Shown: positions 2,827-24,173, counted from the first letter of the stretch. The stretch is 24,173 bases of DNA from a virus (IMGVR_UViG_3300029448_000433:1-24173), one strand, 5' to 3'. The notes: generated from the letters alone by a model not told the origin. Numbers and translations: made by a program.

Positions 2827-5800
2827 ATGCCCGTTCTCCAAACAGGTCTGGCGACGCCTTCGGCGTCATCGTTTGAGATTGAGCAGTCAATTCGCGTTGA
2901 TGATGGCGACTCTGCAAATTTAAGCCGGACGCCAAGTAGCGCAGGCAATCGTAAGACTTGGACATGGAGCGGTTGGATCAAACGCGGAAACCTTGCAACG
3001 GGCAGTAATCAATGTTTCTTTTCTGCCGGTGTTGATGGATCGAACTATCAAAACCTAGCGTTTAATACGTCCGACAAACTTATTTTTGAGCATTACGAAA
3101 GCAATGTTCTAAAAGGTGCGCGAACCTCATCAGCGGTTTACCGTGACCCCTCGGCGTGGATGCACTGCGTTGTCGCTTATGACACGACTCAATCAACCGC
3201 AAGTGACCGCATAAAAATTTATGTGAATGGGGAACTGCTAACAGACTTTTCTTCTACAACTGATCCCGCTCAAGACCATGACGGCATTGTTAATAACACC
3301 GTTGAGCATCGTCATTTTTCGATTGGTTACGGCGCGTATTGGTTGTTTGACGGCCTAATCGCTGAGGCGCATTTTGTAGACGGTACCGCGCTTACTCCGG
3401 CGAGTTTCGGTGAAACCAGTTCATCACACGGCCAATGGGTTCCAAAAGACACCACTGGCGCGATCACCTACGGCACGAACGGCTTTTACCTCAAGGGCGC
3501 GGACAGCGCGCTTGCGAATAGTTTTACGGACAACAGTTCGTCATCTAAAACCATAACCGCTAACGGTGACGTAGCCCACTCCCGCGCTCAAGCAAAGATC
3601 GGCAGTTCATCCATTAAGTTTGATGGTACTGGAGATTTTTTAAGTTGCGCTGATTCAAGCGACTGGTCATTCGGAACAGGTGACTTCACTCTTGAGACTT
3701 GGGTGCGCTTCAATGACAGCGCGGGAAGTGAAAACCTTTTCAGCCAATATCAAGACGGCTCAAACCGATGGTATTTGTCCGCTGATCTGACAAACAATTC
3801 TTTAGGCTTCTACGATGCCGGAAGCGGTATGGATGTTGAACAGACAGTTGTAACGTGGGTCGCAGATACTTGGTATCACGTTGCGATGGTCAGAAGTTCT
3901 GGAACGGTGACGTATTACGTTGACGGAACGGCTTACACGATTTCCGGAACAAGTCCCGGCGGGAACATCACAAACAACACTGGAACACTTCAGATCGGCC
4001 AGTACAACACTGGCGATAACTTAAACGGCTATTTAGACCGGATAAGAATCTCTAACAGTGCTAGATATACAAGTGCCTTCACTCCATCCACAACAGCGTT
4101 CGCCTCGGACTCAAACACCAAACTCCTGATCCAATCAGACTTTAGCGGTGGGCTAGGCGCAGATAGTTCTGGGAATAAAAACGATCTAACCAGTGCCAAC
4201 CTCACTGCCAACGATGTTGTCTTGGACGCGCCAGGACGCAACTTTGCTACGCTGAATCCTTTAGATGGTTTCAATAGCATGACTGCTACTGAAGGAAATT
4301 TAAGAGCGCATACTAACTCTGGAAGTAATCCTAAGATAAATGCTACCTTCCAAATACCGCAGTCGGGTAAATGGTATTGGGAGTTTGTAGATCAGCATGG
4401 ACTCTCCATAATGATCGGTGTAGTTGACCAAATTAATACAGGCAGTGTGTATAGCAACAACAACTCCGTTATATATAACTCTGGAGATGGCAATAAATAC
4501 AACTTTTCGTCTTCGGCCAGTTATGGAGCAAGTTGGACTACTGGCGACATAATTGGTGTGGCATTTAATAGAGATGATAATGAGATTACGTTCTACAAAA
4601 ATAATGCTTCCCAAGGGACATTAACGATAGGTGGAACAGCCGCTCAACGCGCCAGATTAATGCCGATGATTGGTACTGGAACTACTGGTACTGGTGGAGG
4701 AACCTTCAACTTCGGTCAAGACAGTTCATTCGCCAATACAAAATCAGGCTCTGCGTCAGCACAGGACGCTAATGGCAAAGGTGATTTTTTCTATGCCCCA
4801 CCGGCAAATCATTTAGCACTCTGCTCTGACAACCTCAGTAACCCTAGCATCGCTGATCCTACGGCTCACTTCGATACCAAACTCTACACCGGCACAGGTG
4901 CGGAACTCGCAGTCACCGGCTTAAATTTCTCACCGGGCCTAACGTGGATCAAGACCCGCGCTTTGACTTACAACCATCGTGTCTTCGATGTTGTTCGTGG
5001 CGTCACAAAAGAACTCTACCCAAACACGACTGGCGCTGAAGTCACAGACGATGCTCAAACTCTGAAATCTTTTGACAGCAATGGCTTTACTTTAGGTACA
5101 TCTAGCGGTGTAAACCCATCAAGCACGATGGCCTCATGGAATTGGAAAGCAGGAGGCACAGCATCCTCTAACACTGACGGCACGATTACCAGTTCAGTAA
5201 GTGCGAATCCTACGGCTGGATTCAGTGTGCTAACTTATACAGGAAATAATACGGCAGGTGCAACAATAGGTCATGGACTTGGTTCTGTTCCTGAGTTAAT
5301 TATTACAAAAGGTCGCACCGCTTCTGCATCAGCGCATTCCGACGACTGGTTTGTTTACTTAGAAAAAAAAGGAGCAAATGCAGCATTAAAGTTAAATTCA
5401 GATGCAACGCCAGTAACTTCAGCAACACAATATTGGAATAATACATCGCCAACATCTTCTGTATTTTCAGTATCAAATGACACAGTTACAAACGAAAACT
5501 CAAGAAGCTATGTAGCCTATTGCTTTAGTTCCGTAGAAGGCTACAGCAAGGTAGGTAGTTACGTTGGAAACGATCAAAATCCTAATGGGCCATTTATTTA
5601 CATGGGTTTTAAACCTGCTTTCCTTATGATTAAAGCATTGGATAGAAGTGATGACTGGATTATCGTAGATAACAAAAGAGATTCATACAATATTGTAACA
5701 AGAAAATTAAATCCAAACACTGCTGGCGCTGAAATAACCAACCATGCGATTGTAGATTTTGTTTCTAATGGATTCAAAATTAAAGACAATAGCGACAAGG

Positions 5801-5874
5801 TAAATCTACTTAATAGTAATTATCTTTATTTGGCTTTTGCAGAATCACCATTCAAATACTCTAACGCGAGGTAA
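2827..5874 (+). CDS. Large multidomain lectin-like fibre (LamG, SPRY-like)
   Basis: A 1015-residue protein built of sugar- or surface-binding modules, presumably the main host-recognition protein. In order: a LamG / concanavalin-like domain at about residues 18-215 (TWTWSGWIKRG, KIYVNGE); a second at about 258-435 (KFDGTGDF, ETWVRF, WYHVAMVR, YYVDG); a SPRY-like domain at about 501-635 (KWYWEF, GDIIGVAFNRDDNEITFYKN); and two related modules to the C-terminus, about 680-830 and 860-1010, of a kind I recall from marine phage fibres (DUF7483-like; TWIKTR, WFVYL, ELYPNTTGAE / KLNPNTAGAE, FDSNGF / FVSNGF). The gene is compositionally patchy: the SPRY part and the 3' third are distinctly AT-rich. 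It starts one base after the previous stop. Individual domain names are from pattern recall, not a search. Confidence 0.8.
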   Translation: MPVLQTGLATPSASSFEIEQSIRVDDGDSANLSRTPSSAGNRKTWTWSGWIKRGNLATGSNQCFFSAGVDGSNYQNLAFNTSDKLIFEHYESNVLKGARTSSAVYRDPSAWMHCVVAYDTTQSTASDRIKIYVNGELLTDFSSTTDPAQDHDGIVNNTVEHRHFSIGYGAYWLFDGLIAEAHFVDGTALTPASFGETSSSHGQWVPKDTTGAITYGTNGFYLKGADSALANSFTDNSSSSKTITANGDVAHSRAQAKIGSSSIKFDGTGDFLSCADSSDWSFGTGDFTLETWVRFNDSAGSENLFSQYQDGSNRWYLSADLTNNSLGFYDAGSGMDVEQTVVTWVADTWYHVAMVRSSGTVTYYVDGTAYTISGTSPGGNITNNTGTLQIGQYNTGDNLNGYLDRIRISNSARYTSAFTPSTTAFASDSNTKLLIQSDFSGGLGADSSGNKNDLTSANLTANDVVLDAPGRNFATLNPLDGFNSMTATEGNLRAHTNSGSNPKINATFQIPQSGKWYWEFVDQHGLSIMIGVVDQINTGSVYSNNNSVIYNSGDGNKYNFSSSASYGASWTTGDIIGVAFNRDDNEITFYKNNASQGTLTIGGTAAQRARLMPMIGTGTTGTGGGTFNFGQDSSFANTKSGSASAQDANGKGDFFYAPPANHLALCSDNLSNPSIADPTAHFDTKLYTGTGAELAVTGLNFSPGLTWIKTRALTYNHRVFDVVRGVTKELYPNTTGAEVTDDAQTLKSFDSNGFTLGTSSGVNPSSTMASWNWKAGGTASSNTDGTITSSVSANPTAGFSVLTYTGNNTAGATIGHGLGSVPELIITKGRTASASAHSDDWFVYLEKKGANAALKLNSDATPVTSATQYWNNTSPTSSVFSVSNDTVTNENSRSYVAYCFSSVEGYSKVGSYVGNDQNPNGPFIYMGFKPAFLMIKALDRSDDWIIVDNKRDSYNIVTRKLNPNTAGAEITNHAIVDFVSNGFKIKDNSDKVNLLNSNYLYLAFAESPFKYSNAR

Positions 5875-9749: not shown

Positions 9750-11897
9750 ATGGCAGAAAACGAAGAAAAGATATGTCCTAAATGGCCTGAGTGCGGTTGT
9801 TCGTACCAAGGCGAACAGTGTGGGATGTCCATGCCGGTAAAGGAACCCGAGCGGGCGAGGATGAAACTCGTAAAGCAGGTTCTTGGCAAGGTCAAATCAG
9901 CCGAGAAGTTCCACGAAGCTGCGTTCAAGCAGATGAAAAGGGATATGGAACTTGCGTTTGATGGCCACGACTCCAACTGGTCGGATGAATGGTACACAGC
10001 CAACATCGTAAACCGGCACATTCAGCAGAGAACGGCTGCGCTCTACGCCAAGAATCCTAAAGCGACTGCAAAAAGACGCGAACGGATGGATTTTTCGATC
10101 TGGGATGAGGATAACAAGTCCTTGCAACGCGCCATGATGGGTGTCCAGGCAGCGAATCAGATGGGCGATCCGTCAGGTGGCGCTTTCGCGCCACAGTTAA
10201 TCAAGGCCCAGTCCATTATGGAGGACTACTCGCAGGGTCAGGAACGCCGGAAGATGCTTGAACGGATCGGAAAGACCATGGAGATTCTTTTTTCCTATTT
10301 CATGGACGAGCAGAACCCGGATTTCAAGACGCAAGCCAAGGCTCTAGTGCGACGGGTCATCACGACTGGCTGCGGATTTGTAAAAATTGGCTTTCAGAGA
10401 CAGATGGAGCGCCGTCCAGAGGTCGCAGCGCGGATAAACGACGTCACAGCGCAGATTAACCGGCTTCAACGCCTTGCTGGAGACATTGCCAAGGGCGATT
10501 TGAACGAAGGCGATGCCGAATTAGAAGAATTACGCTTAATGCTCGAATCTTTAATGTCCGAGCAGATGATGATCGTCCGCGAAGGGTTGATTTTCGACTT
10601 CCCAGAGCCGGATGCCATCATCGTTGACCCAATGGCGAGTCAACTGCGTGGTTTTGTTGGCGCAAAGTGGATCGCGCACAAAATGTACCTCTCACCTGAT
10701 GAGGTGCAAGAAGTCTATGGGTACGATGTAAGTAAAAAGGCCATTCGTTACGATATGAAAGGTGTTGCGGAAGACCGGAAGATGTATTCAGACGTTACCG
10801 AGTTTGATGAACATCAGGATACCCGCACCAATCTGGTTTGCGTGTACGAAGTCTATGATAAGCCGTCCGGCCTGATGTACGTTGTCGCAGACGGTTGCCC
10901 CGACTTCCTGACTGACCCTATTGCACCGCCAATGAAAATTGAAACCTTCTGGCCGGTGATGTGTCTTACGTTTAACGAGTCAGAACACAAGGAAAAACTC
11001 TATCCGGTGTCTGATGTTGGACTGATCGCACCGATGCAGGCTGAGTACAACCGCGCTCGACAGGGATTGCGGGAGCATCGCCGAGCCAACCGGCCCAAGT
11101 ATGCGACGGCAGCCGGGATGCTAGAGGACGAAGATCGCGCAAAACTTCAAATGCACCCCGCCAACGCGGTGCTTGAGTTACAGGCACTTGCAGCGGGCCA
11201 GAAGGTCACGGACGTACTTCAACCCGTGCCGATGATCGGGATCGACCCGAATCTGTACGAGGTCAAAACGATTTTTGATGACATTCAACTGGTGGTTGGA
11301 GCCCAGGAGGCCACATTCGGTGGCGTCTCCAAAGCGACCGCGACAGAGACGTCGATTGCTGAGAGTTCACGAATGTCCAGCATGGGCGCTAACGTCGATG
11401 AGCTGGATTCGTTTATGACGGAGATCGCCAGACTCTCTGGGCAAATTTTGTTACAGGAAATGTCGATAGAGCAGGTCAAGAACATTGCAGGCCCGGGAGC
11501 CACTTGGCCAGAGTTCTCTCACCAACAGATTCAAGAGGAGATTTATCTTGAGATCGAGGCGGGATCTACCGGCAAACCAAACCGAGCTGCTGAACTGGCA
11601 AACCTCGAAAGAATACTTCCGTTCCTATTACAGATGCCTGGGATCGACCCAGTGTGGCTGGTCAAAGAAGTGCTAAAACGCATGGATGACAAACTTGATA
11701 TTGATAGGGCGATTAACGATGGAATGTTGAGTATTGCAGCGCAAAACTCGATTCAACAGGGACTGGCCGTAGGACAGGAAGTAGCAGCCAGCCCCGGAAA
11801 CGAACCTTCACAACAGGGGCAACGTGGTGCTAACCAGTTGCCTGATCCGCGCCAACCCGAAGGTTCGACAGCACCAATGGGCGCCAACAATGTTTAA
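9750..11897 (+). CDS. Portal protein (head-tail connector)
   Basis: A 715-residue protein forming the ring at the packaging vertex, through which DNA enters and leaves. Size and position directly after the terminase and before the scaffold fit, as do typical portal parts: an early NIVNRHIQQRTAALYAKNPKA helix region, a membrane-like core RRVITTGCGFVKIGF, a long charged coiled coil at about residues 227-275, the VDP-centred core (DAIIVDPMASQL), and a helical stem region with EATFGGVSKATATETSI. The length is nearer to P22-type (about 725) than T7-type portals (about 536). The C-terminus is Gln/Pro-rich and probably disordered. Unusually, the extreme N-terminus holds four cysteines spaced C-x5-C-x-C-x6-C at residues 9, 15, 17 and 24. 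The start follows AAAGA closely after the terminase stop. Confidence 0.88.
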   Translation: MAENEEKICPKWPECGCSYQGEQCGMSMPVKEPERARMKLVKQVLGKVKSAEKFHEAAFKQMKRDMELAFDGHDSNWSDEWYTANIVNRHIQQRTAALYAKNPKATAKRRERMDFSIWDEDNKSLQRAMMGVQAANQMGDPSGGAFAPQLIKAQSIMEDYSQGQERRKMLERIGKTMEILFSYFMDEQNPDFKTQAKALVRRVITTGCGFVKIGFQRQMERRPEVAARINDVTAQINRLQRLAGDIAKGDLNEGDAELEELRLMLESLMSEQMMIVREGLIFDFPEPDAIIVDPMASQLRGFVGAKWIAHKMYLSPDEVQEVYGYDVSKKAIRYDMKGVAEDRKMYSDVTEFDEHQDTRTNLVCVYEVYDKPSGLMYVVADGCPDFLTDPIAPPMKIETFWPVMCLTFNESEHKEKLYPVSDVGLIAPMQAEYNRARQGLREHRRANRPKYATAAGMLEDEDRAKLQMHPANAVLELQALAAGQKVTDVLQPVPMIGIDPNLYEVKTIFDDIQLVVGAQEATFGGVSKATATETSIAESSRMSSMGANVDELDSFMTEIARLSGQILLQEMSIEQVKNIAGPGATWPEFSHQQIQEEIYLEIEAGSTGKPNRAAELANLERILPFLLQMPGIDPVWLVKEVLKRMDDKLDIDRAINDGMLSIAAQNSIQQGLAVGQEVAASPGNEPSQQGQRGANQLPDPRQPEGSTAPMGANNV

Positions 11898-12999: not shown

Positions 13000-14064
13000 A
13001 TGGCATTTTCAGCAGGCGAACTTGCGAACATTGCTAACGCTGCGCTCGACTTTTTTGTTGATCGTGGCGATGTACTGTCGCAAACCATCCAAAGCAAACC
13101 ACTTCTCAAAGCCATGGACGGAAAAGCTAAAACTTTTCCGGGCGGTAAAGGTGATGTGAGTGTGGCTGTGAAGGGTGCGTACACCACAAGCGTTGCGGGT
13201 TACACACATAACGATACTGTTACGTATGCAAACCCCGCTAACATTGTCCGAGCGAACTACACCTGGCGTGAGCATCACGCTGGCATCTCGCTCACTCACA
13301 CGGAACTAAAGCACGACGGTATCTCTGTTGTTGATACCGACGGCGCCGAAGTTTCACAGCACAGCAAGCGTGACATGACCATGCTGGCCAATCTTCTCGA
13401 GGACAAGCTCGAGGACATGATGGAAGGCTACGCACGGGGCATGAATACTCTCCTTTGGGGAGACGGCACCAGTGATGCGAAAGCAATCGCGGGTATCCGG
13501 GCGTTTGTGACCGACGATCCAACAACCGGCACGGTGGGTGGCATCAACCGTGCAACTTCCGGCAACGAATACTGGCGCAACCGTGCCAAGATCGGTGCCG
13601 GCAAGATCGCTGCATCTGCGGATCTGGTGGAGACTATCCACACAGAGATGAGGCAGTTGCGTCGGTACGGTGGTCGTCCAAACATTGCTCTTTGTGGCTC
13701 GACATTCCTTGACCGTCTGGTAAAGGAATTGAGAGATAAAGGCAATTACACCGAGTCGGGCTTTTCCAAAGGCGCCGATATCTCAATCGGGGAGATCAGT
13801 TACAACGGAATTAAATTCCAGTACGACCCCACGCTTGATGATTTGGGAACCTCTGGTTCGGGTGCAACTATCGTTGACTATCCGAAGCGTTGCTACATCC
13901 TCGACACCAACCATATCCATCTAATGTACATGGATGGCGAGAAGATGAAGCGCCACTCACCCACCCGCCCAGCGAACCAGTATGTGATGTATCGCGCAAT
14001 CACGACCACAGCGGTTGTGTCTGCCAATATGCTGAATTGCAACGGCGTCTATCAGGTTGAGTAA
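13000..14064 (+). CDS. Major capsid protein (HK97-fold type)
   Basis: A 354-residue protein following the scaffold. The N-terminal arm is helical (LANIANAALDFFVDRG), then come beta-rich parts (VSVAVKGAYTTSVAGY, YTWREHHAGISLTHTELK), the stretch WGDGTSDAKAIAGIRAFV near residue 152, and GGINRATSGNEYWRN near residue 180. The WGDG, then 'I x G I x x x V x D x P', then GGI(N/D)RAT pattern is one I know from major capsid proteins of many podoviruses and siphoviruses. A later part CGSTFLDRLVKELR and a C-terminal beta strand fit the HK97 fold. Codon use looks like that of a strongly expressed gene, and a hairpin follows the stop, as behind the capsid gene of T7. A separate decoration protein is not obvious unless it is the next gene. 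Confidence 0.9.
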   Translation: MAFSAGELANIANAALDFFVDRGDVLSQTIQSKPLLKAMDGKAKTFPGGKGDVSVAVKGAYTTSVAGYTHNDTVTYANPANIVRANYTWREHHAGISLTHTELKHDGISVVDTDGAEVSQHSKRDMTMLANLLEDKLEDMMEGYARGMNTLLWGDGTSDAKAIAGIRAFVTDDPTTGTVGGINRATSGNEYWRNRAKIGAGKIAASADLVETIHTEMRQLRRYGGRPNIALCGSTFLDRLVKELRDKGNYTESGFSKGADISIGEISYNGIKFQYDPTLDDLGTSGSGATIVDYPKRCYILDTNHIHLMYMDGEKMKRHSPTRPANQYVMYRAITTTAVVSANMLNCNGVYQVE

Positions 14065-14501: not shown

Positions 14502-15200
14502 ATGGCTAGAGGAACAACACTAAATTCCTTAATTGAACAGTTAAGGGCAGAGGCAGGTTATTCCTTATCGGTAAGCCTTGGCGCTGCGAATCGTGACGTA
14601 CTAAAAAATCTGTTGCAAAGGACACAGAGACGGCTATGGGAAGACTTCTCATGGCCGTTCTTGCGCGTCAAAAGCGACATCGCAGCATCTTCCGCGCTGC
14701 GTTATTACAACCTGCCGTCGAACATAGACATTGACCGTATAGAGCGGGTCGAGTTCAAGGATGGCGGTTACTGGACGCCACTCGAGTACGGGATCGGCCC
14801 GCACCAGTTGGCCGAACACGATAGCGATGAATCCGAGAAGGGGTGGCCTGTCAGGAACTGGGAGATTTACTCAGACACCCAGTTTGAGGTTTGGCCCGTT
14901 CCGAATACAAACGGAACGCCCTCCGACCTTGACGGTTACTTCCGAATCATCGGCACTAAGAATCTCTCTGCCCTTGTTGATGGATCTGATACCGCTGATC
15001 TGGACGATCATCTGCTGGTGCTTTTCGCTGCTGCGGAAATCCTAGCCAGAAATAAAAGCGGTGATGCTGACGTCAAGTTCCAGCAAGCACAGGCCCATTA
15101 CGCACGGATCAAGGCCCGAGTATCAAAAAGTAACACCTTTGTCATGGGCGCTTCTCCAGCAGCACGGCAACCCCGATTGAAAGGGGCGATTATTACCTGA
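14502..15200 (+). CDS. Head-tail adaptor (gp11 / SU10-adaptor-like)
   Basis: A 232-residue protein in the place of T7 gp11, which forms the ring between portal and nozzle. Features known from this family: an N-terminal helical part with an LQRTQRRLWEDFSWPFL motif (residues about 42-59), a YYNLPSNIDIDRIERVEF strand pair, the (E)WEIYSDTQFEVWPVP stretch around residue 125, and a C-terminal helix DDHLLVLFAAAEILAR followed by a basic tail. This fits the SU10-type phage adaptor family (recall). GAGGA lies before the ATG. The last base of its TGA starts the ATG of the nozzle gene (TGATG), so the two are likely made in balance. Confidence 0.8.
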   Translation: MARGTTLNSLIEQLRAEAGYSLSVSLGAANRDVLKNLLQRTQRRLWEDFSWPFLRVKSDIAASSALRYYNLPSNIDIDRIERVEFKDGGYWTPLEYGIGPHQLAEHDSDESEKGWPVRNWEIYSDTQFEVWPVPNTNGTPSDLDGYFRIIGTKNLSALVDGSDTADLDDHLLVLFAAAEILARNKSGDADVKFQQAQAHYARIKARVSKSNTFVMGASPAARQPRLKGAIIT

Positions 15201-17446
15201 TGCCTTATATCGTCGTTGAAAATTTCAAAGGTGGTATCGATGGGCGTCGGATGGATGTTACCGCCACCCCAGGCACGTTGACGGAGTTAAAGAACGCGCA
15301 TATCACCCGTGGTGGTGAGATCGAAAAGCGACCAGCCTTCGTGGAGTTATGTACCTTGCCGACTGATACCTCTGGGCTGGCAGCATCGGCAGATACACTG
15401 TTCACCTTTGGATCAGTTGCATCTGTCAGTCTACCGTCTGGCGCTCCGTCCAATCTGACTTATCAACGACTGGTGCATCCGACGAATAGCAGCACCGCGC
15501 TATCGCGGGTCGCAGACGTAGAGATCTATTCCGGCAAGACATACGCCGTCGCAGAGTTTGCTGACGGCTCTTTGAATCATTACTACAACACTTCCCGCGT
15601 GACCCAGTTGTTTGATGGTCGCGCCTCTGGGCAGTACACCATCACGGGTGGCACAAAAGGTGCAATCACCAGTATCACTGTGAACGGTGTCGAGGCTCTG
15701 GGATCGAGTGTCCAGATGGCCTACACCGAAGCGACGTTTACTGGGGGCGGTGGGAGTGGTGCAACATCAACAGTGACCCTCTCAAGCGGTGCTGTCAGCT
15801 CGATTGCTGTAAACGATGGCGGGTCGGGATATTCGACTGTGCCGACAGTCGTGATTTCTGGCGGGGGTGGCAACAGCGCCACGGCGACAGCAACCATCTC
15901 GGCGCAAGTGGCCTCCGTGACAGTCACAAACGGGGGCAGCGGTTATTCGAGCTCGCCCACGGTGGGCTTTTCTGGCGGGGGCGGGTCTGGTGCGACAGCC
16001 ACGGCAAATCTCTCTGCGGGCGCGGTGTCTTCACTAACGATTACGAGTGGTGGATCGGGGTATTCAAGTGCGCCGACGGTTTCCTTTTCTGGTGGCGGTG
16101 GTTCCAGTGCAGCCGGTACGGCCGTCCTGGGGTCAGGCTCGATTGCATCAATTTCTGTGACGGGCGGGGGCAGCGGTTATGCCAACGACAGCACGACGTC
16201 TTTCGCAACCAAGGTAGCGTCGCAACTCGATACTTTTTCAAGCAGCCCAGAATACAGTGGAGCCGATGCCGGAAGCAAGGTTCACGTTCTCGCTGCTGCC
16301 AGTGGAACAGGATCGAACGGATTTTCAATAGTAATGACTGTTGCTGCCGGGACTGCATCCGGCTACGACATTACCTCAAGCGGAACGTCCGCTGTCGGGG
16401 GCAGTTCAACGACCTATACCACCTCAATGAGCGGAGGCGGTTCGTCTGGAGGAACGTACACCCCAGGTGAATTTGTCTGGACGTCTGGCAATAAGGTTTA
16501 CCAATTGTCAGAGTCCGTCATGTTCTTCAGTGGTATCGACTCTCCGACTGAGTGGCTTGATGCCAGTATCGGCGCAGGGTTCATTAATATGTCGAATCAG
16601 GCAGCGGGTTCTGAGAAGTTAAAGGCGATGGCCAACTACTACCAGAACGCTGCCATTTTCTCTGAACGTGCTGTACAGATCTGGTTCATCGACCCTGACC
16701 CTGATAAAAACTCCCAGTTACAGGTGCTTTCCAATACCGGCACAATAGCAGGCCATAGCGTTGTTCAGTTTGGCGATAACGACGTCTTTTATCTCTCGGA
16801 AACGGGGGTACGTTCTCTGCGGGCGCGTGACTCATCCAACGCTGCTTTCGTCGGCGATGTGGGCAATCCTATTGATGACATCATTCGGGCAGAGATACAG
16901 GCAAGTAGAAGTAATGCTGTAATTGCAAAAGGGGTGATCGAGCCGAGGGAAGGCCGGTACTGGTTAGCCATCGGCACCAAGATATACGTCTTCTCCTACT
17001 TCCCTGGGTCAAAGGTGCAGGCATGGTCAACCTATGAGCCGGGATTCACGGTAGACGCCTTCGCAGTACAGGGCGAGAAACTTTATGTGCGCGATACCGC
17101 AAACAAACTTTATCTTTATGGCGGGACAACAGGAACAACCTACGATTCCTCGACTGTTACCGCGACGATCCCATTCCTTGATGCTGGTTCACCGGCAACG
17201 ACCAAAGCGTATTCGGCTATAGACCTTGCTTGCGATGGCGTCTGGGCCGTCAACGTCGCTACCGATCCGCGAGATATTACCAAGACTGAACTGATTGCCA
17301 CGGTGCCGGACACGACTTACGGCATGGGGTCGGCAGCCTTCCAGGGCTTGTCTACGCATATCGGACTGAAACTAACCAACACTGATCCCGGGTCGGCCAA
17401 AGTGGCCAACTTGGTTGTTCATTACCAGAGCGCACAGGCCGACTGA
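15200..17446 (+). CDS. Tail nozzle protein (T7 gp12-like) with Gly-rich insert
   Basis: A 748-residue protein, close to the length of T7 gp12 (about 790). It opens with the family-typical NFKGGIDGRR and 'ELKNAHITRGGEIEKRPAFV' type start. The rest forms beta-propeller-like strands: FSERAVQIWFIDPD, DVFYLSETGVRSLRARD, IGTKIYVFSYFPGSKVQAWS and GEKLYVRDTANKLYLYGG. Residues about 181-330 are an insertion made of four tandem Gly/Ser/Thr repeats. The protein closes the head-tail channel. It follows the adaptor with a TGATG overlap and is itself coupled to the next gene in the same way. The family call is firm on context and on the strand motifs; the insert is not a feature of T7 gp12. Confidence 0.82.
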   Translation: MPYIVVENFKGGIDGRRMDVTATPGTLTELKNAHITRGGEIEKRPAFVELCTLPTDTSGLAASADTLFTFGSVASVSLPSGAPSNLTYQRLVHPTNSSTALSRVADVEIYSGKTYAVAEFADGSLNHYYNTSRVTQLFDGRASGQYTITGGTKGAITSITVNGVEALGSSVQMAYTEATFTGGGGSGATSTVTLSSGAVSSIAVNDGGSGYSTVPTVVISGGGGNSATATATISAQVASVTVTNGGSGYSSSPTVGFSGGGGSGATATANLSAGAVSSLTITSGGSGYSSAPTVSFSGGGGSSAAGTAVLGSGSIASISVTGGGSGYANDSTTSFATKVASQLDTFSSSPEYSGADAGSKVHVLAAASGTGSNGFSIVMTVAAGTASGYDITSSGTSAVGGSSTTYTTSMSGGGSSGGTYTPGEFVWTSGNKVYQLSESVMFFSGIDSPTEWLDASIGAGFINMSNQAAGSEKLKAMANYYQNAAIFSERAVQIWFIDPDPDKNSQLQVLSNTGTIAGHSVVQFGDNDVFYLSETGVRSLRARDSSNAAFVGDVGNPIDDIIRAEIQASRSNAVIAKGVIEPREGRYWLAIGTKIYVFSYFPGSKVQAWSTYEPGFTVDAFAVQGEKLYVRDTANKLYLYGGTTGTTYDSSTVTATIPFLDAGSPATTKAYSAIDLACDGVWAVNVATDPRDITKTELIATVPDTTYGMGSAAFQGLSTHIGLKLTNTDPGSAKVANLVVHYQSAQAD
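15740..16192 (+). repeat. Tandem GGSGY repeats inside the nozzle gene
   Basis: The codons for G-G-S-G-Y start at residues 207, 245, 284 and 322, so the unit is 38-39 residues (about 115 bp). Each unit has an S-G-G-G-G-(S/N)-(G/S)-A block, a Thr/Ala-rich strand and a V-(S/T)-(S/T)-(I/L)-x-(V/I) strand before GGSGY. Copies differ at many third positions, so the array is old or under protein-level selection. Confidence 0.85.
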
Positions 17447-17934
17447 TGATTCTTGAGCCAATAACTCCAAACGACGTTTTTGATGTTGCTTATCGGATGC
17501 GGGATCAGGACTTTGAAGAGATTCGCCTGCCATACCGTTCAGAGAGTCGTAGAAAAGTCGCCACGATCTTGATGGACAACTTAACTGGGTATTACGCCGA
17601 TGGCTGGACAATGTGCAACGACCGGGGAAAGCGTGTCGCGATCTGTGGTTGGTCACGTTATCCAGAGAAGCTGACGCGGGCCAAGGTCGGATTTTTCGCA
17701 ACAGATGACTTTAATAGGATGCGCTACACGATCACGAAAACGATTCGAGAAAACTTGGATCACTGGGCGCAGCAGCGTGATGTTGTTCAGATGGATTGCC
17801 AGTCTCTTGAAGACTATGACGACGCGCACAAGTGGATTGAATTCTTTGGTTTTAAGCGTGGTGATGTGTTGCCCGATTGGCGGGACACAGGCCATAACTA
17901 CATTAACTTTTCAAAACAGATAGCAATTCTTTAG
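17446..17934 (+). CDS. T7 gp13-like protein with GNAT-like fold
   Basis: A 162-residue protein in the gp13 position, between the nozzle and the gp14-like gene. It reads like a degenerate acetyltransferase fold: ITPNDVFDVAYRMRD at the start, a central sheet (GKRVAICGWSRY, KVGFFATDDF), a helix DDAHKWIEFFGFKRGD and a terminal strand GHNYINFSK. T7 gp13 has the same order of parts ('...RFLKTIGAVF...' before a last strand), is needed for virion morphogenesis and is not known to acetylate anything. No clear acetyl-CoA loop (R/Q-x-x-G-x-G/A) is visible here, which speaks for a structural or assembly role. Confidence 0.65.
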   Translation: MILEPITPNDVFDVAYRMRDQDFEEIRLPYRSESRRKVATILMDNLTGYYADGWTMCNDRGKRVAICGWSRYPEKLTRAKVGFFATDDFNRMRYTITKTIRENLDHWAQQRDVVQMDCQSLEDYDDAHKWIEFFGFKRGDVLPDWRDTGHNYINFSKQIAIL

Positions 17935-17945
17935 AGGATAGAGAT

Positions 17946-18818
17946 ATGTGTGATCCAGTAACAGCATTAATCACAACCGCTCAATTTATTGGTGCAAACG
18001 CTCCAGCACTAATTGCAGCAACAGGAGCAGCAGTATCGGGTGCTACTTATGAGGAAGGGCGTAAGGGCGCCCATAGAGCAAGAGAGGCGGGGAAGGCTGC
18101 ACAGAGTACTGCAACGGATCAGTACAACGAGCAAACAAAGATCAGTCAGGATCGCTATACAGCGCAACAGGACTTAATGGAAGCTGAGAGAGTACGGGTA
18201 GCGGAACGAGAGGCTGCTATGGAAGCAGAACGCACAAGAATGAGGGACGAAGAACAGCAAAGGCAGAACCGAATTGCTGGAGGGCGATCCGCTGTATCTG
18301 ATGTTTTTGGCCAGACCTTCAATCCGGACTTTTACGACAAGCAGCAGCAGGCTTTCTTGGATTTCCAAAATCCACAACTGGAAGACCAATATAAAGATGC
18401 CGGATCAGAACTGTTGTTCGCTCTCACCAGAACTGGGCTCGGGCAATCCTCTGCGATGAACAAACGTCAGGCGAAACTGTCTGACACTTACACACAGGCC
18501 GGTCAGGATATTGTGGATGAGGGAGCCAGAAGAAGGGCGCAGACTGAAGCAGCCGTCAATCAACAGAAGCAAATGCTGATGGGGCAGGCTGAAGCAGCGC
18601 ACGATCCTTCCTATATGCGGGGTCTGGCGCAATCCCAGTCTGCATCGTTGGCTGCACCTCAATCCTTGTCAAACCTTGGGGACGTTTTTGCAACTGCGCT
18701 CTCTGGGATCACCAGCGCATACGATCAGGAAAGACGAAAAACGGCTATCGCTGACAGGATGCGCCGAGCTTCCGAATACGGGATCAGTGGTGAAGGCCCA
18801 ACAAATATCGTGAGTTAG
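17946..18818 (+). CDS. Internal virion protein, T7 gp14-like
   Basis: A 290-residue protein that starts Met-Cys, then a hydrophobic stretch (ALITTAQFIGANAPALIAATGAAVSGA, here residues 6-32), then a long charged coiled coil (about residues 40-105, rich in Glu, Arg and Gln) and further helices. A Met-Cys start with an N-terminal membrane-active stretch and a helical body is the layout of T7 gp14, which is ejected first and makes the outer-membrane channel. Position behind the gp13-like gene agrees. GAGGATAGAG before the ATG is a good ribosome site. Confidence 0.72.
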   Translation: MCDPVTALITTAQFIGANAPALIAATGAAVSGATYEEGRKGAHRAREAGKAAQSTATDQYNEQTKISQDRYTAQQDLMEAERVRVAEREAAMEAERTRMRDEEQQRQNRIAGGRSAVSDVFGQTFNPDFYDKQQQAFLDFQNPQLEDQYKDAGSELLFALTRTGLGQSSAMNKRQAKLSDTYTQAGQDIVDEGARRRAQTEAAVNQQKQMLMGQAEAAHDPSYMRGLAQSQSASLAAPQSLSNLGDVFATALSGITSAYDQERRKTAIADRMRRASEYGISGEGPTNIVS

Positions 18819-18829
18819 GAGGAAGGGTT

Positions 18830-19687
18830 ATGAGTATTAACTGGAATTCGTTGTTTCAGAATTTAGGCGCCCTCGCTCCTCAAATCGCGAATTTCGCGAG
18901 TGCAGCTCGAGGCCCGATAGGTCTTGGCATGATGGGTGGGGGCTTCGCTAGTGCGCTTAAAGGGCAGCAACAGGAATACGATGCCTGGAGGCGTAAATAT
19001 GATGATGAACGACGCTTGATGGAAGAAGCAAATCTGGGGCGTCACAATCAATTTATGGCCAAAAAAGCCTTGCGTGATGATGAGATCGCACGGCAGGCAG
19101 GTATCCAACAACAGAGCGAGGCGTTATTCGATCAATCTTTGCAGCGACAAAAATCAATGGACTCGGAAATTGAGGCCCGCATGAAAGACACGCTGGCACA
19201 GTACGCAGATATTCCGGCAGCGCCGATACCTAAAACACAAGGCGCGACAGAGGCGCCCAAGGTCGTGGCCGAAAATCTCAACAAGCAGATGGCAGATCAG
19301 GCTGCGAGAAATCAGTCCAGGTCGCAGGCCAGAGCGCAGGTACTCGCTCCCGGCTTTGCGTTAGCCAATGCAGGTTTACAGGCCGGCGACATTAACAATG
19401 CGCTCCAATCTACTGCTGCTCAAAGTCAGAGAAGCGGGCGGGTTGCCGACATTGAACAGCAGATGTTTAATCCGGTTCCGCTGTACCCGACCTCTGAGAC
19501 AGGCATCGACCCACGGGCTGATATCAACAAACTGATCGGCTCCACGATGTTCAATATGGGTAATCAGATCAGGCCATCGTTCAGCGATATGTTTGGCTCA
19601 ATGTTCCCTTCCAGTAACACCCGTCAACCAACGCCTCGACCGTGGTCTTCAGTTTACGGGAACACTTACAACACTCGACCGAGATAA
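18830..19687 (+). CDS. Probable second internal virion protein
   Basis: A 285-residue protein with a strong GGAGG site before the ATG. Residues 11-45 are hydrophobic and Gly/Ala-rich (LAPQIANFASAARG, IGLGMMGGGFASALKG), then a charged, Gln-rich helical part (about 46-120), a basic Ala/Gln-rich part, and a Pro/Ser/Thr-rich tail. The layout mirrors the preceding gp14-like gene, and the position is that of an extra ejection protein. I do not recognise a family. It could be a diverged copy of the gp14-like protein or an additional membrane-channel subunit. Confidence 0.6.
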   Translation: MSINWNSLFQNLGALAPQIANFASAARGPIGLGMMGGGFASALKGQQQEYDAWRRKYDDERRLMEEANLGRHNQFMAKKALRDDEIARQAGIQQQSEALFDQSLQRQKSMDSEIEARMKDTLAQYADIPAAPIPKTQGATEAPKVVAENLNKQMADQAARNQSRSQARAQVLAPGFALANAGLQAGDINNALQSTAAQSQRSGRVADIEQQMFNPVPLYPTSETGIDPRADINKLIGSTMFNMGNQIRPSFSDMFGSMFPSSNTRQPTPRPWSSVYGNTYNTRPR

Positions 19688-19692
19688 CGGCA

Positions 19693-20964
19693 ATGGCTAA
19701 GTACACAACATTCTCACCGCTGTATAACAACACCGGACTCGGAGCTGCTGCGAAAAACTTTCAAAGCACGATGTTTGGAGGTGGTGGAGGTGGCGCATCA
19801 GAACTTGACCCCTCGCAGATTTACGCTAACGAGCAGTTGGCTGAACAGCGAAAGAGGGTAGCAGCACAACAACAGTTTGAGACAGGCCAATGGAGGGATA
19901 GATTTAATCAGCCAAATGCTTCCCCGACATTGTTCGGCAGTAATTATGCTCAAGAGCAAGCAGGGCTGAGTCACATAACAGGCAGAGATATGTTGTTGCG
20001 GGGAACCCCTTATGCCAATCAACCAGCAACAGGAATCTCTAGCGCAATGGCGGGAGCGCCTTTAGCGCAGAGCCCAGATGGCACACCCGTTTCAAATGCC
20101 ATGCTGCCACAGCCAATCACATCCGAAGCAGACTGGCAACGGGTTGGATACCTTATGGGTCGAAACCAGATGGATACAGGTGGATGGTCGGCCGGGACTC
20201 GTCAAGACAATTTCGATGCAAGTTTGGCCAATAATTTAGAAAAACAGGCTCTTGCAGATAAAGGCGCAATGGCACGACAGCGAGTGGTTACAGACGGCGC
20301 AAATGAGAAACAACGAATCGCAGATACAGGCTCAATGGCTCGGCAGCAACAGTCGGACGAATCATCAGAAACGCGACAGTCCGGCGTGAACGTAACAAAC
20401 GAATTCAGCAATCAGGGTGTTCTTTCTCCAAGCGCATCCAGACAACTGATTCCTGATTACCAGTCCATGACGCCGGAAGATTTATCAGCGTTAGGGTATC
20501 AAAGGGTCGGCAATGGTCTTAGATCATTAAGCACAAGCAGGTATGACTGGACACTTTCTGAGCAAGTTGCATCAGGAAGAAACATTAATTCGTACTTCAA
20601 AGGTCAGTCAGAAGAAACGCAAGGCTTGGCACAGTTAATTCCAGACAGTGTATTGGATTCTTTTCAGACAGATATCGCAGCCGAATTTAAAAGAACGGGT
20701 GATAACAAAAAAGCGGTCGATCAGATAATGGGGTCAGAGTTTGATGGCGGTGTGACTTTAATTGAAGAAGCCGACGGTTCTTTTGGAGGGGAAGATACAG
20801 CGATCTCTACTAAACAATTAAAAGAAGCGAGCAAGCATTTTAGGGCATGGGCCACTAAAGGAGAAGCCGCACAAGGACGGACGATAGTTGCTGGTTGGTT
20901 GAAATCACTGGGCTATCCAGAGAAGCACATTAACAGCATTATGCACCATATAGAAAATAACTAA
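19693..20964 (+). CDS. Probable internal virion protein, gp15 position
   Basis: The ATG at 19693, five bases after the previous TAA with GAG upstream, is preferred over ATG 19642, which would overlap the previous gene by 46 bases. The 423-residue product has a run of six glycines near residue 30, long Gln/Arg-rich helical parts, a 22-residue repeat at residues 188-231 and a more globular C-terminal third (YLMGRN, LIPDSVLDSFQTDIAAEFKR, GRTIVAGWLKSLGYPEKHI). No catalytic motif is visible. Its place between the gp14-like genes and the giant gene suggests the role of T7 gp15, a tube-forming ejection protein, although it is shorter than gp15 (about 750 residues). Its TAA overlaps the ATG of the next gene (TAATG). 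Confidence 0.65.
   Translation: MAKYTTFSPLYNNTGLGAAAKNFQSTMFGGGGGGASELDPSQIYANEQLAEQRKRVAAQQQFETGQWRDRFNQPNASPTLFGSNYAQEQAGLSHITGRDMLLRGTPYANQPATGISSAMAGAPLAQSPDGTPVSNAMLPQPITSEADWQRVGYLMGRNQMDTGGWSAGTRQDNFDASLANNLEKQALADKGAMARQRVVTDGANEKQRIADTGSMARQQQSDESSETRQSGVNVTNEFSNQGVLSPSASRQLIPDYQSMTPEDLSALGYQRVGNGLRSLSTSRYDWTLSEQVASGRNINSYFKGQSEETQGLAQLIPDSVLDSFQTDIAAEFKRTGDNKKAVDQIMGSEFDGGVTLIEEADGSFGGEDTAISTKQLKEASKHFRAWATKGEAAQGRTIVAGWLKSLGYPEKHINSIMHHIENN
20254..20385 (+). repeat. 66-bp in-frame repeat in the gp15-position gene
   Basis: The codons for ADKGAMARQ (from 20254) recur as ADTGSMARQ (from 20320), 66 bp or 22 residues apart, followed in both by Gln/Glu/Arg-rich residues. It is a helical repeat; the two copies have drifted at the DNA level. 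Confidence 0.7.
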
Positions 20965-23900
20965 TGGCGAGACTGAGCCTTTATGACGGCCTTTATATGC
21001 CGTCAAATACGCTTGAACCTGTCGATGATCTCGACTCGCAGAATTCAACAAACCTAAGAATTTATGACGGCCTTTATATGCCGTCAAATACGGTGCTTGA
21101 TGCCCCGCAGGCGATTGATACGCTTGAACCTGTCGATGATCTCGACTCGCAGAATTCAACAAACCTAAGAATTTATGACGGTCTATTTTCCCCACCCGTC
21201 ATCACCCCGGCCATCGGTGACGAAGAAGAAGCAGACGAACTGCTAGTGGCGCCATCGGTTGAGCAGGTACAGCCGGAAACTACTGCGCCGATAACTACAT
21301 CTGCAATAGATCCAGCCCCAGAGAAAGGATTGTTTGACTCTGCGATTGACTCTTTCATGGGTGTAGATAACGTCAGGCAGGGTATCGCGAAAAATTGGCG
21401 CGAGGCCGAGAGTCTTGGGGATTACCTCTATCCAGAAACTTTAAGAGACATAGATCGACGAGATTTCGAGGATTATGGAAAGCCACTAGCAGAGGCAGTT
21501 AAGTCTGTTCCAGACCTCGCGCAGCAAACGGCAGGCGGTCTGATGCAATACGGAGCCTCCGGCGCGAACGAAGATTACAAGATTGGGGAAAATTACGCTC
21601 TTTATCGTTTAGGACAATTATGGAAACCCGCTGTTGAAAAGAAAGGTGCTGAACTAGCGGAAACAGCAGCCAAGGAGCTGAAAAAAAGCGGTGAGCAGTT
21701 TGAGCCCGGATCGCGAGGCCACTACGTTTACCAGATCGCGCTGCAAACAGGAAATATGATCCCGGCGGTTGCTGTAACAGTTGCTACGAGAAATCCAAAC
21801 CTCGGCGCAACGATCATGGGTACTCAAGCGTTTTCGCTCAAATATGACGAGTCAATCAGAGTAGACGGACGAACCCACGATCAGGCTACCGTGGACGGTT
21901 TAGTGTTCGGGTTATCCGAATTGCTGACAGAGAGAATTCCTCTTGGGATTATCACCAAAGAAGGTGGCACGTTCGTCTGGCGTGTTGCTAAAGGTGCAGC
22001 AGCAGAGGGTATTCAAGAGCCTGTAAACCAAATTATTCAAAACCTGTACGACGTCGGTGTTCTCGACAAGAAGATGACGTTAGATCAGGCGATACACGAA
22101 ATAAAAGAGGCAGCCAAGATCGGCGGTGGCACAGGTGCCGTCCTTGCTGCCCTTACCCATGTGTTCGTCAGAAAGCGCGGTGGCGTAACGCCTCCGACCG
22201 GAGATCGCCTATCTGATGATATGCCGGACGGAACACAAGAAGAACGAGACGCAACAGCAGCGTTTGTAGACGCAGAACTGGAGAAAGGACGAGAACAGCC
22301 TGCTCCATCACAGCCCGTAGGGCAAGGCATTACTTCCGTATTAGGCGCTGAACAGCGTACCGTTAAGACACAGGCCGGTACGGCCGTCGATGTTTTACCG
22401 GAGGTTATCGATGCAGCAAATCTAATACCCGCCGATGCAGAGTTACAGCCACGGGATCGGGATCGCGCAGCGATGGAATCTCAGATAACGCGGATCGCGT
22501 CCGAGCTTGATCCAAACCAGTTGGGCCTGCAACCCGACGCGGATCGGGGCGCTCCGATCATTGGCCCGGACAACACAATCGAATCCGGCAATGGCCGAGT
22601 AATGGCCATAACGATGGCGCAAAAGCAGTTCCCAGAACGGTTCGAGGCGTATAAGAACTTCCTTGAGGAACAGGGCTACGACCGCGATCAGTTAGACCAG
22701 ATGCAGGTGCCGGTACTGGTGCAGAGACGCACGACCGAGATGAGTCAGGACGAGCGGATGCGGTTCGCGCAAGAGGCCAACGCTGCCACACTGGCCAAGT
22801 TATCTGCGACCGAGCAGGCCAAGGTAGATTCCTCACGCCTGACGCCGGCCGTTATCGCGCAGTTGCAGACAGATGATCTCAATGCTGCTGCAAACCGTGA
22901 TTTCGTCAAGTCGGCCATCGAGGTACTGGCGCCCACGGCAGAGGAAAAGAATGTCCTCGTAGACAAGAGCGGGGCGCTCTCCAAGGAAGGTTTAAGTCGT
23001 GTCAAAGGCGCGGTACTGGCAAACGCATACCCCAATCAGGAAGGGCTGCTCGAGCAGCAGCTTGAATCGACGGACGAGGACACCAGAGCCGTGTCCCAGG
23101 CATTGCTGAACGCAGCGCCACGGATCGTGCAGACTCGCGATCTTCTACCCGAGGATCGGCGTGAGCAATATGAGATTGCCGATGATCTGGTGGAGGCAGC
23201 GCAGGCGCTTGCCGATATGAAAAGCAAAGGCATGAGTCTTTCCGACTACCTCAACCAGTCTGATATTTTTGGAACGAATGAAAACGCACTCGCGATCTTG
23301 ACGGCGTTTTTAAACCCAAACAATGACCGCGCTGCGGGCGTAGACAAGATAAAAGAGTTTATAAACGATTATCTGGCCGTTGTGCCGACCGAGCGCACTG
23401 CCACGCTTTTTGGCGATAAGCCGATGAGCAAGGCCGACATTCTTGATTTTGCATTAAAACGGCACAAGGAACGCTTTGGTAAGCCGGCCGAGCAGAAGGG
23501 ATTATTCAATCCTGCTGGGCAGTCCACCACAAGTCAGCCAGAGCCGAAGCCAGAAACAAAGCCGGACGTTTTTACCCCACAACAGTTTTACGATGGCCCG
23601 CCATTAAAGTCTGGCAAAGAAGCGTTTGACGTTTTAACTAAAGAGCGAAACAAGCGTAAGTCGGCCGACCCCGGGGAATTTTTCACGATTGAGGTTCCGC
23701 TTGGGGATCAGAAGGTTACTGCAACATGGGTCAGCGGTAAGACGAACTGGCGTGTTGATGGCGTGATCGTTAGCGTCAAAGTCGTCAAGGAAATGACGCT
23801 TGAGCCGGTCAAAAAGCCAGCGACGAAAATGTTTACCCCACAACAGTTTTACGATGGCCCGCCACTAACGTCTGGCAAAAGAGTCGTTACTGTTTTACAA

Positions 23901-24173
23901 AGAGAGATGTATCAACGATCGATACTACAAGGCCAAGAAAACTTTACGCTTGAAGTTCCGTTTGGGGATAAGAAGGTCACTTTAACAGATATAACAAGCG
24001 ATCACAGTAAAGTTGGACAACACCGACAGTCTGAACGGCAATACCACGTTGATGGCTCCCCCGCCACCGAAAGCAGCATTCAAGAGATGACCCTAAAGCC
24101 GGCCAAGAAGGCAGTGGCAAAAAAGAAGGTAGCGCCACAACGGGCCAAAGAGATTAATTTCTGGCGCAGCTCT
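20964..24173 (+). CDS. Giant polyvalent-type ejection protein, 3' end cut
   Basis: An ATG at 20964 overlapping the previous TAA opens a frame with no stop up to the window end: 1070 codons, incomplete. Residues 6-73 are nested repeats (YDGL three times). Residues about 122-265 are helical. Hydrophobic or amphipathic parts lie at 263-287 (GNMIPAVAVTVATRN, NLGATIMG), around 315-350 (LLTERIPLG, GAAAEGIQEPVNQ) and 387-402 (GGGTGAVLAALTHVFV). Residues about 468-625 carry a ParB-like domain of the DdrB type: VLPEVIDAANLIPA, GPDNTIESGNGRVMAI (GNGR at 542-545), VPVLVQRRT, FAQEANAATLAKLS. The usual helical extension follows (ALSKEGLSRVKGAVLANAY, from 671). Two copies of an 87-residue module start at 870 and 957. 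The gp16 position suggests virion packaging and ejection. No transglycosylase motif is seen in this part. The family call is from recall of polyvalent proteins. Confidence 0.78.
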   Translation, partial: MARLSLYDGLYMPSNTLEPVDDLDSQNSTNLRIYDGLYMPSNTVLDAPQAIDTLEPVDDLDSQNSTNLRIYDGLFSPPVITPAIGDEEEADELLVAPSVEQVQPETTAPITTSAIDPAPEKGLFDSAIDSFMGVDNVRQGIAKNWREAESLGDYLYPETLRDIDRRDFEDYGKPLAEAVKSVPDLAQQTAGGLMQYGASGANEDYKIGENYALYRLGQLWKPAVEKKGAELAETAAKELKKSGEQFEPGSRGHYVYQIALQTGNMIPAVAVTVATRNPNLGATIMGTQAFSLKYDESIRVDGRTHDQATVDGLVFGLSELLTERIPLGIITKEGGTFVWRVAKGAAAEGIQEPVNQIIQNLYDVGVLDKKMTLDQAIHEIKEAAKIGGGTGAVLAALTHVFVRKRGGVTPPTGDRLSDDMPDGTQEERDATAAFVDAELEKGREQPAPSQPVGQGITSVLGAEQRTVKTQAGTAVDVLPEVIDAANLIPADAELQPRDRDRAAMESQITRIASELDPNQLGLQPDADRGAPIIGPDNTIESGNGRVMAITMAQKQFPERFEAYKNFLEEQGYDRDQLDQMQVPVLVQRRTTEMSQDERMRFAQEANAATLAKLSATEQAKVDSSRLTPAVIAQLQTDDLNAAANRDFVKSAIEVLAPTAEEKNVLVDKSGALSKEGLSRVKGAVLANAYPNQEGLLEQQLESTDEDTRAVSQALLNAAPRIVQTRDLLPEDRREQYEIADDLVEAAQALADMKSKGMSLSDYLNQSDIFGTNENALAILTAFLNPNNDRAAGVDKIKEFINDYLAVVPTERTATLFGDKPMSKADILDFALKRHKERFGKPAEQKGLFNPAGQSTTSQPEPKPETKPDVFTPQQFYDGPPLKSGKEAFDVLTKERNKRKSADPGEFFTIEVPLGDQKVTATWVSGKTNWRVDGVIVSVKVVKEMTLEPVKKPATKMFTPQQFYDGPPLTSGKRVVTVLQREMYQRSILQGQENFTLEVPFGDKKVTLTDITSDHSKVGQHRQSERQYHVDGSPATESSIQEMTLKPAKKAVAKKKVAPQRAKEINFWRSS
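20984..21005 (+). promoter_or_regulatory. Hairpin 1 in the repeat
   Basis: TGACGGC (20984-20990) and GCCGTCA (20999-21005) form a seven-pair stem with an eight-base loop. It lies 20 bases after the start codon, where a stable mRNA hairpin could slow ribosomes or bind a protein. Confidence 0.55.
21009..21181 (+). repeat. 62-bp direct repeat (pair B)
   Basis: A 62-bp sequence beginning ACGCTTGAACC and ending TTTATGACGG is identical at 21009-21070 and 21120-21181, 111 bp (37 codons) apart. It encodes TLEPVDDLDSQNSTNLRIYDG. Pair B overlaps pair A, so the block reads A, B, A, spacer, B. Identity with no synonymous change points to a recent duplication that kept the frame. Confidence 0.95.
21065..21086 (+). 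promoter_or_regulatory. Hairpin 2 in the repeat
   Basis: Second exact copy of the TGACGGC / GCCGTCA inverted repeat, arms at 21065-21071 and 21080-21086, 81 bp after the first. Two identical palindromes could also pair with each other, allowing slippage or recombination. Confidence 0.55.
23571..24090 (+). repeat. Tandem 87-residue module in the giant gene
   Basis: FTPQQFYDGPP starts at residue 870 (base 23571) and again at 957 (base 23832), 261 bp apart. Each copy goes on with SGK, a helix, an (I/L)EVP(L/F)GD(Q/K)KVT strand and ends (M)TL(E/K)P then a Lys-rich linker. The first 33 bases are nearly identical while the rest has drifted, as if the start is under stronger constraint or was converted more recently. 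Confidence 0.85.

Follow-up and report, generated by a model that had tools for sequence, protein, structure and literature searches.

A DdrB-type ParB domain in a probable gp16-type ejection protein at the end of a podovirus-like gene cluster

We analysed the 24,173-nucleotide viral contig IMGVR_UViG_3300029448_000433, here called the window, which is the entire virus record. Its last gene encodes the first 1070 residues of a giant protein with a DdrB-type ParB domain, and ends a podovirus internal-virion gene cluster in the place that gp16 holds in phage T7. We consider it probable, at about three in four, that the giant is a gp16-type ejection protein that carries ParB as cargo together with a candidate protease, and that is packaged and injected. 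The features of the giant that bear most directly on this reading are:

20964-24173, + strand: putative giant ejection-type polyvalent protein, first 1070 residues (open frame; 3′ end past the contig end)
22377-22730, + strand: DdrB-type ParB domain, residues 472-589, QPRDR...SGNGR (Pfam PF18763, E = 8.4e-31)
22731-23465, + strand: conserved helical region extending the ParB domain to residue 834 (aligned in 48 sequences and P1 DdrB)
23565-24113, + strand: two diverged copies of a unit of ~85-95 residues (FTPQQFYDGPPL...; from the sequence and the alignment to contig L003)

A constrained ParB domain in a frame cut by the contig end

The frame begins with an ATG at 20964 that shares one nucleotide with the stop codon of the upstream gene (TAATG), and it stays open through 24173, a run of 1070 codons. 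A sequence-only reading of the window had described an open frame of more than 1070 codons in the last place of an internal virion protein cluster; the frame and the gene order are both as described. Since the window is the whole 24,173-bp record, the gene is cut by the assembly and not by a stop codon. Measured in the ParB region against the close contigs L002 (90% identity) and L030 (77-79%), the ratio of nonsynonymous to synonymous substitution rates (dN/dS) is 0.16 and 0.14, respectively, consistent with purifying selection and indicating that the region is a real, constrained coding sequence.

Residues 472-589 match the Pfam family ddrB-ParB (PF18763) with 107.1 bits, against a curated cut-off of 27.6, which upholds the earlier assignment of residues 468-790 to this family; similarity to phrog_5143 stretches over residues 460-923. 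The published marks of DdrB-ParB domains are an active-site arginine, an aspartate or asparagine ending strand 2 and a tyrosine in an extra helix (Iyer 2017, PMC5512222). The giant has all three, with columns paired to the published ones by eye: 48 aligned sequences have, without exception, the arginine of SGNGR and a tyrosine in a helix after it, and an aspartate or asparagine precedes the SGNGR strand in most rows. An AlphaFold2 model of residues 452-840, covering the domain and its extension, is confident (mean predicted local distance difference test score, pLDDT, 91.6). Its four best matches in the PDB are weak (E 0.005-0.4): two chains of a pNOB8-like ParB-N, a ParB-CDP dimer and DNA-bound Noc. 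On visual comparison, the succession QPR, GNGR, P-V, N...TEQA is similar to the QPRR, GERR, P-V, EN...EEA of partition ParB. Profile alignment of the region to bacterial partition ParB failed and did not recover this likeness, and for that reason we hold the idea of a cytidine triphosphate (CTP) clamp to the level of the fold. The window protein and profiles of the ParB, zincin and C-terminal regions were also searched by sequence against solved structures, without a significant match.

Relatives continue the frame into a zincin motif and a gp16-like half

The window ends, and the related contig L003 begins (L003:1-312), inside the repeat region at 23565-24173, where dN/dS is 0.6-1.0 across the repeat unit. 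L003 starts within the last 312-348 bases of the window and extends the same frame by 1420 residues; the last ~110 bases of the overlap are nearly identical. The two contigs belong to close relatives, which falls short of proof of one genome. On other contigs, 19 open reading frames, some of them nearly identical to one another and several truncated at the 5′ end, carry ParB followed by zincin/LPD1, MID and CTERM segments in one frame. The full order is an N-terminal motif, a helical N-domain, ParB, an HEWFH zincin with LPD1, and an all-helical C-terminal half. Complete giants have ~2190-2580 residues, and their contigs include ones binned with an alphaproteobacterium and with a Sphingopyxis. 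In a first alignment, Pfam LPD1 was found in 14/14 members and ddrB-ParB in 12/14, the two exceptions being L003, which starts after ParB, and Microcystis phage Mae-Yong1326-1. ParB, LPD1/zincin and a gp16-like C-terminal half thus occur in one frame in the 19 reading frames, within a virion-gene cluster, a combination that places the giant among polyvalent proteins.

The C-terminal half is homologous to the C-terminal part of gp16. A 17-sequence profile of the 921 residues after LPD1 matched a gp16 family alignment (T7, LKA1, JG068 and LIMElight) with a probability of 97.7 and E = 1.8e-12 over 549 columns, starting near residue 611 of T7 gp16. The match persisted without T7 (97.3); control families of the same phages (gp15, nozzle and large terminase) reached at most 0.11, and reversed gp16 or column-shuffled profiles at most 0.19. 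An AlphaFold2 model of this half is all-helical (pLDDT 67; predicted template modelling score 0.62). Foldseek comparison with viral models ranked polyvalent proteins highest, followed by internal core proteins (RSB3, Ab05, LKA1, LIMElight and JG068) and an "internal virion protein D", with E of 1e-5 to 1e-7 for the phiKMV/T7-type matches. The C-terminal part of T7 gp16 binds DNA, has inner-membrane segments and has been assigned to the ejectosome's cytoplasmic hub (PMC8954989). In the giant, too, the two most strongly hydrophobic segments lie in the gp16-like half. Several hydrophobic stretches had been claimed for the window part; a hydropathy scan finds two mild segments there with a mean above 1.2 and none above 1.6, the strong membrane-like segments being in the C-terminal half, outside the window. 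Given the C-terminal homology, the helical model and the hydrophobic segments, the giant is best read as a gp16-type ejection protein, and the proposed merger of a polyvalent protein with an envelope-crossing ejection protein gains support from these relatives.

The block before and within LPD1 carries, in the relatives and outside the window, the motif FAHEW[FGM]HA[LF]D. H153, E154, H157, D160 and E282/E289 are invariant in 17 relatives, so that an HExxH motif and a downstream acidic ligand are present. This region matches LPD1 and no Pfam peptidase family, and its best match among solved structures is a zincin, at a non-significant E of 0.2. The motif makes a protease likely. P1 DdrB has HELGH at residue 872, also C-terminal to ParB, and its zincin domain has been read as a self-processing protease (PMC5512222). 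Among the domains that the sequence-only reading had guessed for the remainder of the gene, the protease thus finds a motif; for the methyltransferase, helicase and transglycosylase, Pfam gives no match in L003 or the relatives.

Several observations weigh against reading the giant as a gp16-type protein. The window stops before the zincin and gp16-like parts, both of which are read from L003 and relatives. As single sequences, neither T7 gp16 nor L003 produces an hhalign signal, and family profiles are needed. Foldseek comparison of the C-terminal half with the PDB found no fold match. ParB also occurs in giants with unrelated C-terminal halves and so does not depend on the gp16-like part; no gp16-like half was found in the other ParB giants that we checked, one small family of which shares the zincin. 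Finally, the transglycosylase of T7 gp16 is missing, with no SLT or lysozyme profile matching the window protein, L003 or the relatives. P22 gp16 also lacks a transglycosylase, however, indicating that this domain defines only the T7-type gp16.

The giant occupies the gp16 position of a podovirus cluster

By gene-order comparison the giant closes a podovirus internal-virion cluster, as gp16 does in T7, and the cluster as a whole corresponds in order to T7 genes 12-16. With the PF18763 match and the gp16 homology of the relatives, this bears out the proposal of a ParB-type polyvalent protein in the gp16 position. The genes upstream of the giant are:

from 8142, + strand: large terminase (TerL)
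9750-11897, + strand: portal protein (42-43% to the Mae-Yong1326-1 and RHph_N65 portals; phrog_12082)
from 11963, + strand: scaffold-position gene (by position)
13000-14064, + strand: SU10-type major capsid protein (phrog_9953, E = 3e-46; Pfam SU10_MCP)
14502-15200, + strand: adaptor, tail tubular A-like protein (Pfam SU10_adaptor, E = 2e-11)
15200-17446, + strand: nozzle, tail tubular B-like protein (36-44% identical to relatives at this position)
17446-17934, + strand: GNAT-fold "internal virion protein", gp13-like (phrog_308, E = 3e-11)
17946-18818, + strand: 290-residue gp14-like protein, starting MCDPVTA (conserved between the GNAT gene and the giant in relatives)
18830-19687, + strand: 285-residue internal-virion cluster protein (position; homologues in L002 and L030)
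19642-20964, + strand: 440-residue protein, likely internal virion, in the gp15 slot (same place in L002 and L030)

The labels "gp14-like" and "gp15 slot" refer to position and sequence style, not to a profile match. Three small proteins lie between the GNAT-type gene, whose Acetyltransf_3 match (E = 0.002) is below Pfam's cut-off, and the giant. The gp14-like one is kept in this interval in L008, L009, L015, L017, Mae-Yong1326-1 and Rhizobium phage RHph_N65. The gene at 18830 is 78% identical to its L002 homologue, an identity contradicted by the dN/dS estimate for this pair, which we did not use; the 440-residue protein matches no Pfam or PHROG family profile. The order adaptor, nozzle, GNAT, gp14-like, giant is common to L008, L015, L017, L030 and Mae-Yong1326-1. 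L009 has the window's order from the nozzle onward, as far as that contig reaches, and RHph_N65 has the same order with a 708-residue protein at the giant's place. The longer order, from TerL to the three small proteins, likewise holds in L008, L009, L015, L017, L030 and Mae-Yong1326-1 over the part that each contig covers.

Elsewhere in the window, positions 218-5874 hold a tail-fibre cluster on the same strand, with a chitin-binding CBM5/12 domain and with Mtd_N (major tropism determinant), laminin-G, SPRY and DUF7483 domains. Past the giant, L003 (L003:4806-7177) encodes a PD-(D/E)XK nuclease, a phage integrase, a small helix-turn-helix protein and a Cro/CI-type helix-turn-helix protein, which suggests a temperate relative.

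ParB comes and goes within homologous ejection proteins

Over 60 epsilon15-like loci, many from Acinetobacter genomes, encode, between gp15-like and gp17-like genes, a gp16-like protein with ParB near its C-terminus. Epsilon15 gp16 itself has no ParB, and its N-terminal part is 29% identical to gp047 of Alcaligenes phage Piluca (E = 1e-17), a member of the ParB-bearing group. Similarly, the Mae-Yong1326-1 giant has no ParB, and its last 1300 residues are homologous to those of the other giants. ParB has thus been gained or lost within homologous ejection proteins in two lineages, and on these comparisons it behaves as an optional cargo. Of 124 ParB loci that have 5 kb or more of upstream DNA, 86 are preceded by podovirus adaptor or nozzle genes.

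A repeated motif and an exchangeable domain at the N-terminus

The part of the giant before ParB contains the following features:

20973-21011, + strand: N-terminal motif copy 1 (LSLYDGLYMPSNT, residues 4-16; repeat score above all 200 shuffles)
21054-21092, + strand: N-terminal motif copy 2 (LRIYDGLYMPSNT, residues 31-43; repeat score)
21165-21203, + strand: N-terminal motif copy 3 (LRIYDGLFSPPVI, residues 68-80; motif search)
21627-22226, + strand: helical N-domain, residues 222-421, an exchangeable cassette (31-37% identity to the giants of PTXU04 and Vibrio phage 1.232.O)
21291-22313, compared with L002:5383-6477 and L030:7926-9029: swapped N-domain region

The first 80 residues contain LxxYDGL[YF] three times. 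Other giants repeat other motifs in the same place: NLFPELDI three times in L030 (L030:7377-7640), DYS[VI]DTFGN twice in L006 (L006:436-620), FDFRPSQ twice in L008, DPWAVV twice in Mae-Yong1326-1, and FDDLIP near residues 4 and 21-31 in L034, L040, L058 and L132, three of which have an extra copy at 347-464. With shuffling within segments, 17 of 64 non-redundant N-termini reached p ≤ 0.01, as against 2 of 256 windows taken as controls from elsewhere in these proteins. Repeats were found in 16/34 giants and 1/30 short proteins (Fisher p = 5e-5), with the size split chosen after the data were seen. In the window the spacer is duplicated as well, indicating that recent DNA duplication contributes to the repeat, and in L030, L006 and the FDDLIP group the motif is retained while the spacers have diverged. 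A search of the available DNA found the motif in no other gene of these phages. The first 30 residues of P1 DarB suffice for head targeting (PMC9024508), which makes a loading address the natural hypothesis for the repeated, lineage-specific motif; we regard it as a candidate head-loading address.

The N-domain has been replaced in L002 and L030, even though ParB is 77-91% identical across the three contigs: window residues 110-450 cannot be aligned to either relative, and L002 and L030 are 49% identical to each other there. The giants of PTXU04 (Escherichia) and Vibrio phage 1.232.O (L027 and L028) share the window's N-domain but have LPD38 C-termini, and the latter also has helicase and weak methyltransferase matches. 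N-domain families show weak mutual links by profile comparison, and a scan for further relatives added one new contig, along with one that is apparently PTXU04 itself. Against epsilon15 gp16 the N-domain scored E = 6e-4 with a probability of only 29 (controls ≤1.3), which is no more than suggestive of a common origin.

Discussion

We infer that the giant is very probably packed in the head and injected into the host. Its N-terminus would probably dock the protein inside the head, and the N-domain and C-terminal half would belong to the envelope-crossing machinery. The DdrB-ParB domain would be a DNA- or nucleotide-handling cargo, carried by the ejection machine to the point of DNA entry, and the zincin/LPD1 region a candidate self-processing protease that could release the ParB part. 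The most likely action of ParB on DNA would be binding, regulated by nucleoside triphosphate (NTP), or nicking of the entering genome. A fuller picture remains tentative, and we would lean against it as a whole: repeated N-terminal address peptides (YDGLY, NLFPELDI, FDDLIP, DYSIDTFGN, FDFRPSQ and DPWAVV) may load a gp16-type machine, the set being rewritten in each lineage while its copies stay alike, with membrane cassette and cargo freely swapped and ParB serving as an NTP-dependent clamp or handle on the end of the entering genome.

The ParB part might instead attack host DNA or nucleotide pools after delivery. A deoxyribonuclease or nucleoside triphosphatase role has been proposed for the DdrB-ParB family (Iyer 2017, PMC5512222), and the conserved family arginine and tyrosine are kept in these domains; the nearest solved folds, although weak matches, are partition-type ParB and Noc proteins rather than nucleases, and we think such a takeover nuclease possible but doubtful. 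Unlikely, in our view, is a ParB that serves only head assembly or the loading of internal proteins and is inactive in the host. P1 DdrB is listed as aiding the addition of DarB to the capsid (PMC9024508), which fits such a role, but epsilon15 gp16 and the Mae-Yong1326-1 giant have no ParB and must nevertheless assemble. The sequence-only reading had favoured a guard, in which the ParB part keeps host nucleases off the incoming genome, in the way that DarB protects P1. P1 DdrB is a head protein and one of the Dar antirestriction proteins; its gene is nonessential in plating without restriction, which speaks neither for nor against such a role. The adenine methylase and SWI2/SNF2 helicase that characterize DarB are absent by Pfam from L003 and the relatives, the giant resembles DdrB, and DdrB is the listed loading aid, so that DarB-like guarding is not supported and the guard in general is improbable.

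A tail tape-measure protein of a long-tailed phage is very improbable: Mae-Yong1326-1, whose giant is homologous, was published with a micrograph of a 340-nm flexible tail, despite a podovirus-type gene set, and at ~1.5 Å per residue the 2441 residues of that giant would span 366 nm, but neither the window nor the annotated Mae-Yong cluster has a recognisable tail-tube or tail-terminator gene, both having adaptor and nozzle genes instead, the C-terminal half is homologous to gp16, and the micrograph may show a phage other than the one sequenced.

A gp16-type ejection protein with ParB cargo links two literatures, that of polyvalent proteins as predicted injected effectors and that of the gp14-gp15-gp16 ejectosome. 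Should the giant be ejected, the gp16-like half offers a concrete delivery route for the ParB and protease domains. Because ParB is optional in two podovirus lineages, it can be deleted to test what it contributes while the channel is left intact. The N-terminal repeats are a candidate, open to test, for a head-loading signal like that in the first 30 residues of P1 DarB.

Comparison with known systems

The merger of ejection and polyvalent proteins has precedents. DdrB-ParB polyvalent proteins beside virion genes were described by Iyer 2017 (PMC5512222), and JC1 gp69, a DarB-like giant of 4515 residues with a similar place in its cluster, was found in virions (PMC9144972). Like JC1 gp69 and Bcep22 gp75, the giant follows head-closure, acetyltransferase and internal-protein genes; those two are annotated as DarB-type rather than DdrB-type. 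P1 DdrB (995 residues) shares ParB and its helical extension, with 30% identity over residues 467-827, and, as in the DdrB-ParB proteins of Iyer 2017, a zincin motif C-terminal to ParB and a virion-gene neighbourhood. Unlike the giants, which have all of these, it has no LPD1 by Pfam and no MPT_LPD1, MID or CTERM by hidden Markov model.

The relatives of epsilon15 gp16 (Piluca gp047 and proteins of Acinetobacter phages) likewise have ParB in an ejection-cluster protein, but there it lies near the C-terminus of a protein of ~955 residues in which no zincin or gp16-C module was detected. ORF38 of Mae-Yong1326-1 (L022, OP028995.1) is syntenic and 29% identical over the zincin/LPD1/gp16-like part, differing in its lack of ParB; it was published as a peptidoglycan transglycosylase, a label without Pfam support. 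Compared with T7 gp16, the giant has no N-terminal transglycosylase, has ParB and zincin/LPD1 in front, and is about twice as long; like T7 gp16 and the phiKMV-type proteins, it is encoded by the last internal-virion gene and is homologous to them across its C-terminal half.

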